Positions 1-7,011 of a DNA stretch of 64,000 nt are shown in pieces. The position numbers and the translations under genes were made by a program. Within the stretch, counting starts at the first letter, position 1. The number at the start of each line of letters is the position of its first letter. Under the pieces are notes generated by a model, which worked only from the letters and a program-made list of their open reading frames with translations, was not told the origin of the DNA and did not search any database. Where the stretch lies: the NCBI RefSeq assembly GCF_012985205.1, contig NZ_JABEKS010000002.1, positions 434,001 through 498,000 on the forward strand, read 5' to 3'. This DNA is from Planctomonas sp. JC2975. Lineage in GTDB: Bacteria; Actinomycetota; Actinomycetes; Actinomycetales; Microbacteriaceae.

Positions 1-1
1 T

Positions 2-244
2 GTGTGGGGTTGGGCGAGCGCCGCAATGGGTCTGGCGATTGTGGTGCTGACTTATATGTACGGCGCCAAGTTGGGAGATTGGTCGGACCGCTACGCCGGC
101 ACGCCCGCGGAATATGCCGCACCGACAGTAACGCTGCTGTTCGGTGTGGCCGGCCTTGGCCTTCTGCTGCTGATCGGTGGGGTGCTCTCGGCCGTGATGC
201 GGCCAACCAAGGCCAGCACGTCGTCGGTCGACGGGCCCAACTGA
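2..244 (+). CDS. C-terminal end of a small membrane protein (cut by window edge)
   Basis: About 80 residues are visible. Two hydrophobic segments (near residues 5-22 and 42-66) flank a short polar loop containing a Lys-Leu-Gly-Asp-Trp stretch. The tail after the second segment is hydrophilic and Ser/Thr-rich. The reading frame is open right to the left edge, so a GTG at position 2 could be the start or simply a Val codon. I do not recognise the family. It would be an integral membrane protein with at least two helices. No operon partner is visible downstream on the same strand. Confidence 0.5.
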   Translation: MWGWASAAMGLAIVVLTYMYGAKLGDWSDRYAGTPAEYAAPTVTLLFGVAGLGLLLLIGGVLSAVMRPTKASTSSVDGPN

Positions 245-341
245 ACACATGACGACAAGCGACACCCGCCTCCAACCGCATCCCGCCACCCGTGGGCACT
301 GAACTACCCGTTACCCGATCGGCTTGCGAGCGTCGAGGAAT

Positions 342-434
342 CTACCGTCTGCGCCGAGCGATCAGGAACGCTACGACCAGGACAAAAATGAGTGTTGTGA
401 TGACCGCGACTAAGGCTCCGGTACTGATCGCCAT
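342..434 (-). CDS. 30-residue single-span membrane peptide
   Basis: This gene is shorter than usual prediction cutoffs. An ATG at 434-432 is preceded by a near-perfect Shine-Dalgarno (AAGGAGG, six bases upstream). It encodes 30 residues: MAISTGALVA, then an uninterrupted hydrophobic stretch rich in Val, Leu, Ile and Phe, then ARRRR at the C-terminus and a TAG stop. The layout (short polar N-terminus, one helix of about 20 residues, four terminal arginines) fits a small inner-membrane peptide with its C-terminus in the cytoplasm by the positive-inside rule. A 10-bp palindrome TCTCGCGAGA (452-461) lies just upstream. Function is unknown. The strong ribosome-binding site is the main argument that it is translated. 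Confidence 0.55.
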   Translation of the reverse strand: MAISTGALVAVITTLIFVLVVAFLIARRRR

Positions 435-562
435 TCGTCCTCCTTGCGAATTCTCGCGAGACGACAGTATCGGCGATTATCGGTCGAACCTCCGGCGCGC
501 TAGTGGATCGCTGATTGCAGTGTCCGGAGTGCTGGCGATGGTTTCGGGGATGCTGCAGTGTT

Positions 563-848
563 TTAGAGGTCGACGACTTCGAATTCGAGGAGGTCGGCGC
601 CGGTTGCGACGGGGTTGGTGCCGCCGTGGGTCATGCCGGCTTGGCCTTCCCGCCATGCCTGGTAGTCGGCTTCGCTTGCCCAGGTGCTGACGACGAAGTA
701 GCGGTCTTCTCCCTTGACGGGGCGCAGCAGTTGGAAGCTTTCGAAGCCGATGTGCTGGTCGACGTCGTGTGCGACCAGCGAATCGGGCTTCCAGGTCAGC
801 GCCGCGACCTTCGGGGACGTTGATGGCGTTGATCTTCACAACAGACAT
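563..848 (-). pseudogene. Antibiotic-biosynthesis-monooxygenase (ABM) family protein, frameshifted
   Basis: The first 24 or so codons read MSVVKINAINVPEG... in one frame. The rest (DVDQHIGFESFQLLRPVKG, a FVVSTW stretch, and a C-terminal VATGADLLEFEVV) continues in a second frame to TAA at 565-563. Both halves match one ABM/heme-degrading-type ferredoxin-like fold protein of about 94 residues. The span is 286 bases, one more than a multiple of three, which fits a single-base insertion near 765-775. Either the gene is inactivated or there is a sequencing error. If intact it would be a small dimeric monooxygenase or MhuD-like heme-degrading protein. The next gene on the same strand is the efflux pump at 889-1911. 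Confidence 0.7.
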
Positions 849-888
849 GGGTCGTTCCTTTGCTTTCTGGTTGGTGATCGGTGGGTAG

Positions 889-1911
889 TCAGTTGTTGGC
901 GTTCACGGGGGTGACGCGGAAGTCGTCGAGGTTGCGGAGCTCGCTACGGACGTGCGCGGAAGCGTGCTCGGCCACATGGGTCGCATCGTGCAGGGCAAGC
1001 GCATCGGTGGTGACGACGGCGGACCCCAGCAGTCGATGTCCTGACCACCGCAGTTTCACGTTCTGCACCCCGGTGACACCGGTGGTGTGCTGCAATGTGT
1101 GCTCGACCCGCTCGATCAGGTGCGGGTCGACCGCGTCCATCAGGCGGGCGCCGACGGACTTCACGGTCCCCCACAGCAGGACCAGGATCGAGATCGCGAT
1201 GAGCAGACCGATGATCGGATCTGCCAGCGGGAATCCGAGCAACACACCGATCGCTCCGAGCACAACGGAAAGCGAGGTGATGCCATCCAGCCGGGCGTGC
1301 ACACCGTCAGCGATCAGGGCGGCGGATCCGATCTTCCGGCCGACGCGGATGCGGTAGATCGCGACGATCTCGTTGCCGGCGAACCCGATCAGGCCGGCCG
1401 CGATCAACCACCACGCGTTCTCCACCGGGCGCGGATGGATGAACCGGTCGATCGCTTCCCATCCCGCGATCACCGCGGACAGCGCCACCACGAAGATGAT
1501 GAACAACCCGGCCAGGTCCTCCGCACGACCGTACCCATACGTGTAGCGGCGAGTCGCGAGACGACGGCCGAGGACGAACGCGATCCACAACGGAACCGCG
1601 GTCAGCGCATCCGCGAAGTTGTGGATCGTGTCCGCCAACAGCGCCACGGACCCGGTGAAGAGCACAAAGACGAACTGCAGAAGAGTCGTCCCCAGCAGCA
1701 CGAACATCGACACCTTGACCGCCGTCACCCCGGCTTTGCTCGCCTCCAGCGCATCATCCACAGAGTCCGCGGCGTCATGGGTGTGTGGCACGAACAGGTC
1801 GTACAAGAACCCCTTCACACCACCATGCGGATGCGAGTGCCCGTGCTCATGCTCATGCTCATATGTGTGTCCGTGCTCATGCTCATGCTCATGTGTGTGC
1901 TGGTGCGTCAC
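889..1911 (-). CDS. Cation diffusion facilitator (zinc/cobalt/cadmium efflux) with His-rich N-terminus
   Basis: This 340-residue protein starts at GTG 1911. Residues 3-29 are a His-Glu repeat (HEHEHEHGH twice), a likely metal-buffering tail. Six transmembrane helices follow from about residue 66. Helix 2 carries ADTIHNFAD and helix 5 carries ADGVHARLD, giving the His-Asp/His-Asp tetrad usual in zinc-selective CDF pumps. A cytoplasmic C-terminal domain of about 80 residues follows. The protein should exchange protons for cytosolic divalent metal. The gene starts four bases after the ArsR stop codon, so the two form an operon in which the metal would relieve repression of its own exporter. The His repeats come from a repeated DNA tract near 1840-1900. 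Confidence 0.93.
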   Translation of the reverse strand: MTHQHTHEHEHEHGHTYEHEHEHGHSHPHGGVKGFLYDLFVPHTHDAADSVDDALEASKAGVTAVKVSMFVLLGTTLLQFVFVLFTGSVALLADTIHNFADALTAVPLWIAFVLGRRLATRRYTYGYGRAEDLAGLFIIFVVALSAVIAGWEAIDRFIHPRPVENAWWLIAAGLIGFAGNEIVAIYRIRVGRKIGSAALIADGVHARLDGITSLSVVLGAIGVLLGFPLADPIIGLLIAISILVLLWGTVKSVGARLMDAVDPHLIERVEHTLQHTTGVTGVQNVKLRWSGHRLLGSAVVTTDALALHDATHVAEHASAHVRSELRNLDDFRVTPVNANN

Positions 1912-1914
1912 GAT

Positions 1915-2277
1915 CTACGCCTCGGTTTGTGCGTGGTGGTGGCGGGGCGTACCGCCGAGAGAGTGTTCGGCCTGGAAGATCGCGTCGGTCACCAGCTGCT
2001 TCGCGTGCTCGTTCTCCAACCGGTAGAACACCCGCTGACCGTCCTGCCGGGTCGCCACGATCCGTGCCAGACGCAACTTCGCCAAATGCTGCGACACCGC
2101 AGACGGCTGCTTGTCCAGGATGTCCGCCAAATGGTTCACCGACAGCTCCTCGACATCCCGCAACGCGAGAATGATCCGCACCCGTGTCGCATCCGCGAGC
2201 ATCGAGAACACCTCGACAGCCAGCTCCACGTACTGGCTGTCCGGCTCACGCCCACAAATCGGCTTATCTGCATCCAT
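1915..2277 (-). CDS. ArsR/SmtB-family metal-responsive repressor
   Basis: This 120-residue protein has a winged helix-turn-helix at about residues 30-88 (LADILDKQPSAVSQHLAKL is the recognition region). After the wing comes an alpha-5 helix with ENEHAKQLVTDAIFQAEH. This aligns with the alpha-5 metal site of CzrA/SmtB/NmtR, but only two of its usual ligands are obvious (the two His), and a C-terminal RHHHAQ tail could add ligands as in NmtR. It is transcribed with the downstream CDF pump, so zinc, nickel or cobalt sensing is likely, and zinc is favoured by the pump's HD/HD site. The start ATG lies inside an inverted repeat that probably serves as its own operator. Confidence 0.92.
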   Translation of the reverse strand: MDADKPICGREPDSQYVELAVEVFSMLADATRVRIILALRDVEELSVNHLADILDKQPSAVSQHLAKLRLARIVATRQDGQRVFYRLENEHAKQLVTDAIFQAEHSLGGTPRHHHAQTEA

Positions 2278-2286
2278 ACGCAGATA
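2265..2286. promoter_or_regulatory. Inverted repeat, probable ArsR operator
   Basis: TATCTGC (2265-2271) and GCAGATA (2280-2286) form a perfect 7-bp inverted repeat with an 8-base spacer containing the arsR start codon. ArsR/SmtB sites are typically imperfect AT-ended palindromes of this size close to the promoter. A TAGTAT hexamer lies just upstream on the minus strand. Binding here would block both transcription start and translation start. Confidence 0.55.
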
Positions 2287-2402
2287 CTAACGGAAGAGCC
2301 TCGAAGCCTCGAGTCAATGCCAACCCTGGGTCGTGAGCGGCTCCACGCGCCCGCAGGCGGATCGTCAAGTGGGCGGGATCTCTTTCCAGCGATAATGCTC
2401 CG

Positions 2403-2840
2403 ATGGAGATTGAGCTGCGGAAGGCTGTTGCGGACGATGAGGGTTGGCTCTTTGAGCTTCACGAAGCTGCCCATCGCGAACTCGTTGAGGCAGCTTACGG
2501 GCCTTGGGTCGTCGAGCAGCAGGAGGAGTTCTTTCGCCCGCTTGTCGATGACCACGAGGTGTTCGTGGTGGTCGCGGAGGGTCACGACGTCGGTGCTGTC
2601 TATTTGGGTGAGCGCGACGGTGATACCTGGCTTGAGCTGATCGAGGTTGAGCCCGCGCATCAGGGCGAGGGCATCGGGGCGGCAGCGTTGCGCTGGGTCG
2701 TGAGCGGATCGGCGGACCGCGGTCGTGGAACCTTGCTGCAGGTGCACCGGATTAATGACGGCGCGAAGCAACTCTATGAGCGCGAGGGCTTCGCGAGCGT
2801 CGGTGAGACGCCGACTCATCACTTGCTTCGCCGTCCCTGA
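2403..2840 (+). CDS. GNAT-family N-acetyltransferase
   Basis: This 145-residue protein has a standard GNAT fold. The acetyl-CoA pyrophosphate loop is seen as EPAHQGEGIGAAALRW (about residues 83-99), the Q/R-x-x-G-x-G/A signature. The terminal beta-strand region (AKQLYEREGF) is also typical. The substrate is not predictable; small-molecule amines or protein N-termini are possible. A GATAAT hexamer (2391-2396) ends exactly six bases before the ATG and there is no Shine-Dalgarno, so the mRNA is probably leaderless. It is a single-gene unit read towards the decayed IS110 end. Confidence 0.88.
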   Translation: MEIELRKAVADDEGWLFELHEAAHRELVEAAYGPWVVEQQEEFFRPLVDDHEVFVVVAEGHDVGAVYLGERDGDTWLELIEVEPAHQGEGIGAAALRWVVSGSADRGRGTLLQVHRINDGAKQLYEREGFASVGETPTHHLLRRP

Positions 2841-2846
2841 GATCGA

Positions 2847-3030
2847 CTATGCGGCTGCCGGTTCGGTCGCCTTTGGTTGGTAGAGGTGCCGTCGCGGATC
2901 ATTGCGTAGAGGACGTCGGAGCGGCGTCGGGCGAGGGCGATGAGGGCTTGGTTGTGGCGTTTGCCTTGGGCGATCTTGCGGTCGTCGTGGGCGCGCGATT
3001 CCGGGTCCCCCTGCGTGCCGTGTGTTCGCC
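2847..3030 (-). mobile_element. Decayed C-terminal end of an IS110-family transposase
   Basis: The minus strand reads DPESRAHDDRKIAQGKRHNQ, then ALIALARRRSDVLYAMIRDG, which is the conserved C-terminal motif of IS110-family DEDD transposases. After RDGT the frame shifts by one missing base into YQPKATEPAAA and a TAG at 2849-2847. Nothing upstream of about 3030 matches the catalytic domain, so only roughly 60 codons survive. The remnant lies between the metal-resistance/acetyltransferase block and ylxR and may mark the junction of an old insertion. Confidence 0.6.
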
Positions 3031-3336
3031 GTCGCCGATCGGCTGCCCAGTGGATGAGCGGGATGCCCGTTTAGCCCGCGCGATGAGATGCCCGATCGGG
3101 GTGCGTCAACTGCAGCACCGCCGGAAGCACGATTCCGAGCCATTTGGCGGATCTGCCAAGTCCCGGCCATATGTCGCGGAAGCCGCCATCTCCGCTCGGA
3201 ACCTCCGAGAACATACCCGATCGGCATGTTCCGAGCCGAATGTCCTGTCGAGATCCGGAACCGGTGAGACCGGGCGTCGTCGGTGCCGTTGCAGGACCTC
3301 GTCCGAAATACAGTCTCGGCTGCGTGGGGTAAGCTT
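3031..3336. other. Non-coding stretch upstream of ylxR with competing inverted repeats
   Basis: No convincing gene is seen in these 306 bases. They hold a 9-bp inverted repeat, GCTCGGAAC (3194-3202) with GTTCCGAGC (3228-3236). A shorter overlapping pair, GAACAT (3209-3214) with ATGTTC (3226-3231), uses the same right-hand bases, so only one hairpin can form at a time. A promoter for ylxR-infB should lie here. TAAGCT at 3330-3335 is the best -10-like hexamer, but it is one base from the ATG and seven bases from an in-frame GTG (3343). Confidence 0.35.
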
Positions 3337-3624: not shown

Positions 3625-3648
3625 GGCTTGCCCCTGCTCGGGCAAGCC
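3625..3648 (+). promoter_or_regulatory. Intercistronic hairpin before infB
   Basis: GGCTTGCCC (3625-3633) and GGGCAAGCC (3640-3648) form a perfect 9-bp stem with a 6-base loop. The infB Shine-Dalgarno (AGGAGA, 3655-3660) begins six bases after the stem and the GTG start is at 3664. No T-run follows, so it is not an ordinary intrinsic terminator. Its position suggests mRNA processing, stability, or control of ribosome access to infB. Confidence 0.5.
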
Positions 3649-3663
3649 CCGAACAGGAGAATT

Positions 3664-6405
3664 GTGGCTGCAAAACCACGTGTACATGAGATCGCGAGCG
3701 AGCTCGGCGTCGACAGCAAGGTCGCCCTCGCGAAGCTCAAGGAACTCGGCGAATTCGTCAAGGGACCGTCGTCGAGCATCGAGCCCCCCGTGGCTCGCAA
3801 GCTGAGGGCTGCCCTCCAGGCAGAGGGCGCCAGTTCTGCTGCGCCCGCTGAGGCGTCCAAGCCCGTTGCGACCCCGGCGTCGAGGCAGTCCGGCACGCCC
3901 GCGACGGTGCCCGCCGGTGCTGCCGCGCCGCGCCCCGCAGCGCCCAAGCCGCCGGCCGCAACGCCGGCCCCGGCTCCGGCGCCCGCCGCTGCCGAGGCGA
4001 AGCCCGCTGCTGCGAAGTCGGCGGATGCGAAGCCCGCGAGCCCGAAGCCGGCCGATTCCGCGCCGCGTCCCGGTGGTCCGCGTCCCGGTGGTCCGCGTCC
4101 GGGTAACAACCCGTTCTCGAGCTCGCAGGGCATGGGTCAGCGCCCGGCAGGCACGCCGCGTCCGGGTAACAACCCGTTCTCGAGCTCGCAGGGCATGGGT
4201 CAGCGCCCGACGCCGGGCAACATCCCGCGTCCGCAGGCTCCTCGTCCCGGTTCGCCGCGGCCCGGCGGCCCGCGTCCGGCAGGCGCCGGGCAGCGCGGGC
4301 CGCGTCCGGGTGGCGCAGGCGGCGGTCGTCCAGGTGGCTTCCAGCGTCCCGGCGGTGCCGGCGCAGGAGCCGGTGCGGGCGCCGGCGCAGGCGGCTTCAA
4401 CCGTCCGGGTGGCGGCTTCGGCGGCCCTCGTCCCGCAGGTGGCGGCGGCCGTGGTCGTGGCCCAGGCGGCGGCACGGCCGGTGCGTTCGGCCGTGGTGGC
4501 AGCAAGAGCAAGTCGCGCAAGTCGAAGCGGACGAAGAGAGCCGAATTCGAGATGCGGGAGGCCCCGTCGCTCGGTGGCGTCAGCGTTCCCCGCGGCGACG
4601 GCAGCACGGTCATCCGTCTGCGTCGCGGCGCATCCATCAGCGACTTCGCCGACAAGATCGACGCGAGCCCCGGCAACCTCGTGACCGTTCTGTTCCACCT
4701 CGGTGAGATGGCGACGGCCACGGAGTCGCTCGACGAGGCGACGTTCGAGGTGCTCGGTGCAGAGCTGGGCTACAAGATCCAGGTCGTGTCGCCCGAGGAC
4801 GAAGACAGGGAACTGCTCGAGGGCTTCGACATCGACCTCGATGCCGAACTCGAAGACGAGTCCGACGAGGACCTGAAGGCGCGCCCGCCCGTGGTCACCG
4901 TCGTCGGCCACGTCGACCACGGAAAGACGCGCCTGCTGGACGCGATCCGTCAGACCAACGTCATCGCAGGCGAGGCCGGCGGCATCACGCAGCACATCGG
5001 TGCGTACCAGGTGTCGACGGAGCACGACGGCTCCGAGCGTGCCATCACCTTCATCGACACCCCTGGCCACGAGGCGTTCACCGCCATGCGTGCCCGCGGT
5101 GCGCAGGTGTCCGACATCGCGATCCTCGTGGTCGCGGCGGATGACGGCATCATGCCCCAGACGATCGAGGCACTGAACCACATGCAGGCGGCCGACGTGC
5201 CGATCGTGGTCGCGGTGAACAAGATCGACAAGCCGGATGCCAACCCCGCCAAGGTGCGCCAGCAGCTCACCGAGTTCGGTCTGGTCGCCGAGGAGTACGG
5301 CGGCGACACGATGTTCGTCGACGTCTCCGCACGCGAGAACATCGGCATCACCGACCTGCTCGACGCAGTCCTGCTCACCGCCGACGCCGGTCTCGACCTG
5401 CGGGCGAACCCGGACAAGGATGCCCGTGGCGTGGCCATCGAGGCCAAGCTCGACAAGGGCCGTGGTGCGGTTGCCACCGTGCTCATCCAGTCCGGAACGC
5501 TGCGCGTCGGCGACTCGATCGTCGCCGGAACCGCTTACGGCCGCGTGCGTGCCATGCAGGACGAGAACGGCGACGCCGTCATCGAGGCGCTTCCGTCGCG
5601 TCCGGTCCAGGTGCAGGGTCTGTCGAGCGTTCCGCGTGCAGGTGACACCTTCCTCGTCACCGAGGAGGACCGCACCGCACGCCAGATCGCCGAGAAGCGC
5701 GAGGCAGCCGAGCGTAACGCCCAGCTGGCGAAGGCGCGCAAGCGCATCAGCCTCGAGGACTTCACCCGTGCTCTCGAAGAGGGCAAGGTCGAGTCGCTCA
5801 ACCTCATCATCAAGGGTGACGTCTCCGGTGCCGTCGAGGCTCTGGAGGAGTCGCTGCTCAAGATCGAGGTGGACGACAGCGTTCAGCTGCGCATCCTGCA
5901 CCGCGGTGTGGGTGCGATCACCGAGAGCGACATCGATCTCGCGACGATCGACAACGCGATCGTCATCGGGTTCAACGTGCGCCCCGATGTCAAGGCCCGC
6001 GAGCGTGCAGCCCGCGAGGGCATCGACGTGCGGTTCTACTCCGTCATCTACAACGCCATCGACGACATCGAGAACTCGCTCAAGGGCATGCTCAAGCCCG
6101 AGTTCGAAGAGGTGCAGTCCGGTGTGGCCGAGATCCGCGAGGTGTTCCGCTCCTCGAAGTTCGGCAACATCGCCGGTGTGTACGTGCGCAGCGGAACCAT
6201 CACGCGCAACGCCAAGGCGCGGGTCATCCGCGATGGCGTGGTCGTGGGGGACAACCTCGCGATCGAGTCGCTGCGTCGGTTCAAGGACGACGTCACCGAG
6301 GTCCGCACGGACTTCGAAGCCGGTATCGGCCTCGGCAAGTTCAACGACATCCAGGTCGGCGACGAGATCGAGACGATCGAGATGCGCGAAAAGCCGCGGG
6401 TCTGA
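3664..6405 (+). CDS. infB: Translation initiation factor IF-2
   Basis: This protein of about 913 residues places initiator fMet-tRNA on the 30S subunit and is a GTPase. The GTG start at 3664 follows AGGAGA and gives the expected N-terminal [19 protein letters not shown] (IF2N domain). Residues 60-280 are a long low-complexity Ala/Pro/Gly/Arg linker. The G domain has GHVDHGKT (residue 415), DTPGHEAF (about 465) and NKID (about 519). Domains II-IV follow to the C-terminus. The linker contains a 63-bp tandem duplication. infB is followed by rbfA after 168 bases of structured sequence. Confidence 0.98.
4093..4209 (+). repeat. 63-bp tandem duplication in the IF-2 linker
   Basis: Two essentially identical copies (4093-4146 and 4156-4209, period 63 bases) encode the same 21-residue unit, containing [16 protein letters not shown]. 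They lie in the flexible N-terminal linker, where length variation between strains is tolerated. Near-identity at third positions suggests a recent duplication. Confidence 0.85.
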
Positions 6406-6424
6406 CGGCAGACCAAACGGGAAC

Positions 6425-6503
6425 GGGGTTCCCGCTCGGCATTCCCTTCGGGAAGCGAGCGGGGACCCCTACCCGGATTCCCCTGAAGGGAATGCCGAAC
6501 CCC
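6425..6503 (+). promoter_or_regulatory. Mutually exclusive hairpins between infB and rbfA
   Basis: Two strong stems share sequence. Stem A pairs GGGGTTCCCGCTCG (6425-6438) with CGAGCGGGGACCCC (6456-6469), 14 positions with one G-T wobble. Stem B pairs TCGGCATTCCCTTC (6436-6449) with GAAGGGAATGCCGA (6485-6498), 14 perfect pairs, and GGGGTT can also pair with AACCCC (6498-6503). Because the left arm of B starts in A and continues through A's loop, only one can form. This resembles an attenuator or a processing element that sets rbfA expression relative to infB. No T-run follows either stem. Confidence 0.55.
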
Positions 6504-6573
6504 GAGAATCACGTCGGTGGACGTGTTCAGCTGGGCGATCGCACGTGAGGGAAAGAAGAGTAAGGGGAGAAGG

Positions 6574-7011
6574 ATGGCGGACGAAGCACGGGCACGCAAG
6601 CTCGCAGACCGCATCAAGGAGGTCGTCGCCAAGAGGCTGGACAAGGGTCTTCGCGACCCCCGGCTGGGCTTCGTGACCATCACGGATGTGCGCGTCACCG
6701 GCGATCTTCAGCACGCCAGCATCTTCTACACCGTGTACGGCACAGAGCAGGAGCGCACCGATTCTGCAGCGGCTCTGAAAGCCGCGACGGGAATGCTCCG
6801 CACGGAAGTGGGCAGGAACATCACGACCCGCCTGACCCCGTCGCTCGAGTTCATCCTCGACGCGATCCCGGAGAACGCAGAGCACATCGAGGGCCTGCTG
6901 CGGGAGGCTCATGAGCGCGACGCGCAGGTGGCAGGGCTGGCGGCATCCGCTCAGTATGCGGGCGACGAGGATCCCTACGTCAAGCCGCGGGAGCTCGACG
7001 AGGACGAGTAG
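6574..7011 (+). CDS. rbfA: 30S ribosome-binding factor A
   Basis: This 145-residue protein is a KH-like domain maturation factor for the 30S subunit that acts on the 16S rRNA 5' helix. ADRIKEVVAKRL, the DPRLGFVTITDVRVT stretch and the later LEFILD region are family hallmarks. The ATG at 6574 follows a good GGGGAGAAGG ribosome-binding site; an upstream in-frame extension lacks one. Residues after about 120 are an acidic tail. In relatives truB follows closely. Here about 8 kb of other genes lie between. Confidence 0.97.
   Translation: MADEARARKLADRIKEVVAKRLDKGLRDPRLGFVTITDVRVTGDLQHASIFYTVYGTEQERTDSAAALKAATGMLRTEVGRNITTRLTPSLEFILDAIPENAEHIEGLLREAHERDAQVAGLAASAQYAGDEDPYVKPRELDEDE

Follow-up and report, generated by a model that had tools for sequence, protein, structure and literature searches.

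A tip-conserved hairpin family and a putative two-state RNA between infB and rbfA in Microbacteriaceae

Why should the gap between infB (IF2) and rbfA carry two overlapping hairpins that cannot form together? The question arises in a 64,000-nucleotide stretch of the genome of Planctomonas sp. JC2975 (the window), where a first-pass annotation had described two mutually exclusive 14-pair stems, stronger than chance, in an unusually long gap, and had proposed a new control point. The features of the locus are as follows.

3628-6405, forward strand: infB (IF2) reading frame, defined as an ORF and used as the IF2 query for relatives, one of which (L161) had its IF2 confirmed with Pfam
6424-6429, forward strand: outer 5' strand of hairpin B, mostly also the start of A5; pairs with 6499-6504
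6425-6438, forward strand: 5' arm of stem A (A5, the anti-B strand); none of 300 mononucleotide shuffles of this 5' side gave as strong a duplex with the core
6436-6452, forward strand: 5' arm of stem B, from inverted-repeat pairing
6442-6454, forward strand: small hairpin within the loop of A (TTCCC/GGGAA), from MFE structures, pairs checked
6456-6469, forward strand: 3' arm of stem A, from inverted-repeat pairing; shares bases with the conserved tip of B
6457-6479, forward strand: conserved tip, here GAGCGGGGACCCCTACCCGGATT, which differs from the family consensus at one base; from alignments A1 and A2 and the covariance-model match
6482-6498, forward strand: 3' arm of stem B, from inverted-repeat pairing
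6499-6504, forward strand: outer 3' strand of hairpin B; pairs with 6424-6429
6563-6573, forward strand: purine-rich, RBS-like stretch 5' of rbfA, read directly from the sequence
6574-7011, forward strand: rbfA, an ORF, used as the query with which 80 relatives were kept

The two stems were found exactly as had been claimed. Stem A (6425-6438/6456-6469) has 14 pairs including one G-U (T6430-G6464), and stem B (6436-6449/6485-6498) has 14 pairs, all Watson-Crick. Stem B extends inward to 6452/6482, giving 17 pairs with one G-U, and outward, beyond a 6-nt bulge (6430-6435), through 6424-6429/6499-6504, to about 23 pairs in total. Because bases 6436-6438 are common to both stems and the 5' arm of B lies within the loop of A, the two are mutually exclusive. 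Among the 22 short-range inverted repeats listed for the 64-kb window, stem B stands fourth; stem A is absent from them and was picked up separately. In the window, B is not a canonical terminator hairpin with a U-tract, as GAGAATCACGTC stands directly after 6504, and a scan for sigma-70 promoters and terminators gave no site at the element (6425-6504).

The infB stop at 6405 and the rbfA ATG at 6574 enclose a gap of 168 nt, with an MFE of -77.7 (z = -3.85); none of 200 dinucleotide shuffles was equally stable. Together with the shuffle result for the A duplex, this upholds the claim that the structures are stronger than chance. That the gap is unusually long is true only to a moderate degree: among 78 relatives (the 80 named relatives minus two without an infB match) the median was 106 nt, and 11 of the 78 had at least 168 nt. 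The nearest rbfA among the named genomes kept was that of Humibacter sp. RRB41 (91% identity), and the window's genome is one of the Microbacteriaceae. A z score below -2 was obtained in 70 of the 74 gaps scored, three zero-length gaps and one of 470 nt being left unscored. Some hairpin in the infB-rbfA gap is thus the rule throughout the family, and the A/B switch elaborates on it in one particular way. Further upstream, nusA lies about 5.9 kb from ylxR in the window's genome (window 1-3283 plus upstream sequence; G000:C2 431400-437283), the ORFs between them being, by eye, cation efflux-like (889-1911, minus strand), an ArsR-type regulator (1915-2277, minus strand) and GNAT (2403-2840, plus strand); nusA is directly upstream of ylxR in 54 of the 57 relatives with enough sequence.

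Comparison of the 78 gaps revealed a recurring tip, GAGCGGGGnCCCCTaCCCCGATT, carried on arms that differ between genera yet are complementary. The family consensus of the tip is AAGAGCGGGGACCCCTACCCCGATT, and the long arms vary from site to site while still pairing. The window copy matches the covariance model at 6433-6501 with 49.1 bits and has an altered base in the tip stem (CCCGG). Since the MAFFT alignment (A1) misplaces rows carrying a GAGA spacer, covariation was counted on 14 gapless rows (alignment A2), chosen from the 28 rows of A1 for an exact tip and no indel. In A2, 94.8% of cells were paired, with 93.8% counted for its 24-pair arms, and 21 of the 24 arm pairs had double changes. 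Against shuffles, the covariation of B gave 0/500 on four measures and 3/500 on a fifth; its score of 0.74 dropped to 0.21 or less after a one-column slide. That the tip does not vary in A2 is in part a result of selection, its rows having been found via the tip, and tips outside A2 vary (L056, L080, L128, L140-L142). Wobble pairs made up 46 of 1785 pairs in B versus 32 of 353 in A. A search of Rfam 15 returned five weak matches for the window region, all far below the gathering score, and no match for 10 loci with other copies. Judged from these comparisons, hairpin B belongs to a Microbacteriaceae family of 3'-end hairpins whose tip is conserved and whose arms are free to vary; the family is real and conserved, and the function of the two-state RNA is putative.

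Three observations were made beside these. In the gaps of Cryobacterium L049, L060 and L066, the two arms of B are altered in concert, whole blocks at a time (CTCAGGGG versus CTAAAAAGGG), a pattern more suggestive of template switching than of single compensatory mutations. In L187 (G763:C16:20868-20956) the tip is apparently tandem-duplicated inside one arm pair. Other long hairpins with different shared tips (around TTAGGATTGGGCTTCGCCCAAAGGC and GGCGGAGCTTCGCAAGCTCCGCAAGCC) were seen by eye in the infB-rbfA gaps of Herbiconiux (L036, L048, L061, L079) and of L024, L028, L047 and L075, and these are possibly further tip-conserved families.

The exact tip was found by pattern search in 11 of 398 Microbacteriaceae genomes, the window copy, one base off, not being among them. 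One genome, G040, has 11 exact-tip copies, and all ten of those examined have different arms. With the covariance model, at least 33 of the 398 family genomes were matched at E <= 0.01 under strict filters, and matches fell in the infB-rbfA gap of 12 of the 80 named loci (12 of the 78 with infB matched), with a weaker match inside the gap of L069. The copies analysed comprised 56 from genome searches and 12 named ones, L133 being dropped as a duplicate of L044; weak matches left out include G343, G344, G169, L165 of G003 and rows above E 0.05. A search across the order matched 8 of 396 genomes, six of them in Microbacteriaceae. Spread beyond the family was considered and set aside, as the hits L188 and L189 resemble unrelated palindromes by eye; they were dropped from the counts over 26 copies. 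A BLAST search of the gap against its own genome returned its own reverse, short chance-level matches and no second copy; it missed a second locus that the covariance model found, because the arms differ. This second locus (L145:6300-6620; G000:C1 about 1924300-1924620, minus strand) lies behind a short-chain dehydrogenase gene and has two model-matched copies, in tandem units of about 105 nt with different arms, and by eye a third, decayed one.

Away from infB, the position of B was strongly biased. G040 contributes 14 of the 26 Microbacteriaceae copies outside infB. Of the 26, 22 start -5 to 56 nt from a same-strand stop codon, which is the sense-strand placement just behind a stop expected of a canonical terminator; when L188 and L189 are included, a same-strand stop lies closely upstream in 23 of 28. 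An opposite-strand stop was found at -11 to 60 nt in 8 of the 26 and within 200 nt in 17. All gene calls around copies follow a crude rule based on G+C by codon position. The genes ahead of the dispersed copies are unrelated (SDR, glyoxalase, LeuA, GcvP, amidase, PhoX, PdtaS and others), and a common function of the host genes was rejected on that ground. The sense bias at stop codons argues for a role at the RNA level at transcript ends, where B might act as a terminator without a U-tract, a barrier or a cut site.

Next to B, stem A was assessed through duplex energies and tip swapping, because an alignment of the A hairpin, which covered 24 of the 26 copies without L124 and L190, places L140 and L141 in the wrong register. 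In each of 39 distinct infB copies and 28 others, L188 and L189 included, the strongest duplex that the tip forms with upstream sequence was scored against 300 mononucleotide shuffles of that upstream side. At most one shuffle in 300 was as good in 21 of the 39 infB copies; none of the 28 others reached that level, their best value being 21/300. A duplex of -20 kcal/mol was reached in 26 of the 39 infB copies and not in the other 13; L124 and L190 clear this cut, yet showed no A in the partial transcript. G040 has A at infB and lacks it at its 14 other copies. Stem A is thus specific to infB-rbfA among the copies examined. A dispersed repeat in unrelated gaps, which had been named beforehand as the outcome that would speak against the first-pass reading, describes B, which does occur behind unrelated genes, but not the pair of B and A, which was seen at infB-rbfA alone among these copies.

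When tips were swapped among the 26 A-bearing copies, the native value was -726 kcal/mol versus a permuted mean of -631, with 0 of 5000 permutations as strong (0 of 20000 with the 13 distinct tips); these figures ignore phylogeny and, the sequences being related, are not probabilities. Tips that depart from the consensus are paired with a changed A5 in L128, L129, L134, L140, L141 and L142. However, A5 also pairs with the outer right arm of B, the tip being the better partner in 17 of 26 copies and the outer arm in 9. As L128, L129, L134 and L140 are among those nine, only L141 and L142 support A unambiguously, and the signal for A may in part have arisen as a by-product of B, or through template switching between repeats. 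Conservation in relatives, which the first-pass annotation had made its touchstone, was borne out for B by the double changes; for A the tip swapping points the same way, subject to this outer-arm ambiguity and to the missing correction for phylogeny.

The order in which the stems may form was predicted from partial transcripts. For RNA ending about 8 nt past the tip's A arm, the predicted P(A) was at least 0.79 in 24 of 26 copies; once B was complete, 21 of the 26 copies had a predicted P(B) of at least 0.87, and in the window copy and in L022, L139, L141 and L142 it was low or shared. A is thus predicted to form first and B to win at equilibrium in most copies. Extending the RNA by 60 nt lowered P(B) to 0.59 in L126 and 0.03 in L142. 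Blocking the first 8 nt of A5 brought P(B) to at least 0.78 in 25 of 26 copies, including the window copy, where it rose from 0.01 to 0.87. At equilibrium the window copy has a predicted P(A) of 0.96, and over 140 nt its A-state and B-state differ by about 1 kcal/mol (-75.6 versus -74.7 kcal/mol). Since this copy is predicted to remain in A, B would need a trigger in Planctomonas sp. JC2975. The spacing to the neighbouring genes was short: A5 starts a median of 13 nt past the infB stop (range 6 to 26 apart from one miscalled locus; for L010/L014, where an early tblastn end had led to a later stop, the hand-counted true distance is 40 nt, and the value of -64 for L167 stems from the same miscall), and B ends a median of 67 nt upstream of rbfA. 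A ribosome terminating on infB could crowd A5. Most copies, whether at infB or elsewhere, have such a short spacing from stop to element, so it is no specific evidence for a ribosome mechanism.

We favour, with about even confidence, a reading in which a terminator-like or processing hairpin, B, was recruited to attenuate rbfA, A serving as the anti-B structure. Behind ordinary genes B would stand alone and most likely mark where a transcript ends, either by terminating it with no U-tract or by halting 3' trimming. At infB-rbfA, the extra upstream strand A5 would pair with the tip to form hairpin A and prevent B. During transcription A would form first, to be displaced by B once the 3' arm of B has been made. 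A would let RNA polymerase, or the intact mRNA, continue into rbfA; B would end or cut the message after infB, and the balance between the two would set the output of rbfA relative to infB. That balance might conceivably shift when A5 or the tip is occupied, say by a ribosome at the infB stop or a tip-binding protein, and possible triggers include a tip-binding factor, ribosome position and temperature. On this logic, a true gene end would use B alone, and a site within an operon would combine B with anti-B. The interpretation offered in the first-pass annotation is to that extent partly supported.

The main alternative is that the A/B choice sets processing and not termination. An RNase III site consists of a duplex of about 20 or more pairs. 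B would be such a site, or would block exonucleases, and so split the infB and rbfA mRNAs and give them different stabilities; A would be too short for cutting. The near-perfect duplex of B is consistent with this, having at least 20 pairs (24 in the arms of A2) and far fewer wobbles than A, as is the missing U-tract; U-poor stable hairpins at transcript ends are also common in Streptomyces clavuligerus (PMC8269248). Set against these, a plain RNase III site gives no obvious reason for a conserved tip, and the 17 of 26 non-infB copies that lie between converging genes are placed where ending transcription is the more obvious need. We regard processing as a serious possibility that is nonetheless improbable.

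Alternatively, B might be a plain 3'-end hairpin whose tip binds a protein or an RNA, with A a real pairing of no regulatory use, either a folding intermediate or a by-product of the outer arm of B. In its favour, the tip is conserved also where A is absent, and both the predicted win of B at equilibrium (21/26) and the preference of A5 for the outer arm in nine copies fit. It does not account for the changes of A5 along with departing tips, nor for the failure to find A at non-infB copies examined in genomes that have it at infB, such as the 14 others of G040, and we consider it unlikely.

An explanation at the level of DNA was also weighed. Quasipalindrome correction is a mutation bias that keeps the arms of a palindrome perfect, and a mobile or template-switching repeat maintained in this way would need no RNA function. 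The block-wise arm changes between close Cryobacterium relatives and the scarcity of G-U pairs count in its favour, and the 15 sites in G040 (infB plus 14 others) and the tandem copies at the second locus of the window's genome agree with it. Against it stand the sense orientation behind stops in 22 of 26 copies, the conservation of the tip across genera and the confinement of A to one operon, so that it is very unlikely. Chance formation of two GC-rich hairpins in a GC-rich gap is scarcely credible: hairpins are common at high G+C and the window gap is only 3.85 s.d. below its shuffles, but changes match in A and B across genera, and for B the covariation refutes it.

A bolder form of the favoured co-option reading, which we put forward tentatively and regard as doubtful, is that cells recognise 3'-end hairpins by their tip through a putative factor, and that one such hairpin was co-opted at infB-rbfA as a strand-displacement switch, in which the late strand of B invades A. 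The amount of RbfA would then follow from what state the terminating ribosome or the tip factor is in at the end of the IF2 gene, and Enterobacteria would have arrived independently at the same arrangement with BIME. Apart from this bolder form, the locus offers an explicit and testable two-state RNA at the meeting point of translation initiation (IF2) and 30S maturation (RbfA), and natural variants of it already exist. The hairpin class itself, with a conserved tip and free arms, points to a putative tip-binding partner and bears on how GC-rich actinobacteria may end transcripts without U-tracts.

Several known systems invite comparison. Leader attenuators of the trp and his type consist of two mutually exclusive hairpins, the early one blocking the late one. 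The early A and late B resemble these, but lie between two genes of an operon and not in a leader, and B has no U-tract. In REP and BIME elements the stem sequence is conserved, and REP/BIME have a foot tetranucleotide and a linked RAYT transposase. Hairpin B is the reverse, its stem sequence differing from site to site and its tip being conserved instead. Dispersal in the REP/BIME style was seen in the 15 sites of G040, but the window's genome has 2 loci and most other matching genomes one to three copies.

Stable hairpins with few or no U residues after them, called I-shaped or HS-U-lack, have been described at transcript ends in Streptomyces (PMC8269248, PMC12207403). In S. clavuligerus, 353 transcript-end hairpins had few U residues versus 182 with a U-rich tract, and the authors read the former as I-shaped terminators or as ends of Rho-terminated transcripts (PMC8269248). 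These resemble B in stability and position; unlike B, they are mentioned in the relevant sections of the two papers with no conserved tip and no competing stem. An RNA switch of Mycobacterium tuberculosis acting on cell-wall synthesis and ribosome maturation (PMC6009663) is likewise actinobacterial and tied to ribosome maturation, but apparently concerns different genes.

The closest precedents lie in the same gene gap. In E. coli, transcripts of the nusA-infB operon are thought to end at a terminator, t3, upstream of rbfA, an earlier study cited in the same paper gives about twice as much infB as rbfA mRNA, and cold-induced anti-termination at t3 is argued against (PMC6511841). The likeness is a transcript end between infB and rbfA; the difference is that the account of t3 in that paper describes no two-state RNA. 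In Enterobacteria, a conserved BIME-derived element upstream of rbfA was proposed as a terminator with a possible anti-terminator (Naville and Gautheret 2010, PMC2965389). There too a dispersed extragenic palindrome was apparently co-opted in this gap. The lineage is unrelated, and the passage of that paper on BIME gives no covariation test of both states. No description of the tip sequence or of the RNA element was found in the open-access literature searched. A new control point, as the first-pass annotation had it, is therefore too strong: the control point has precedent in t3 and BIME, and what appears new is the RNA element itself. By analogy, the enterobacterial parallel suggests that infB-rbfA has been repeatedly selected as a control point.
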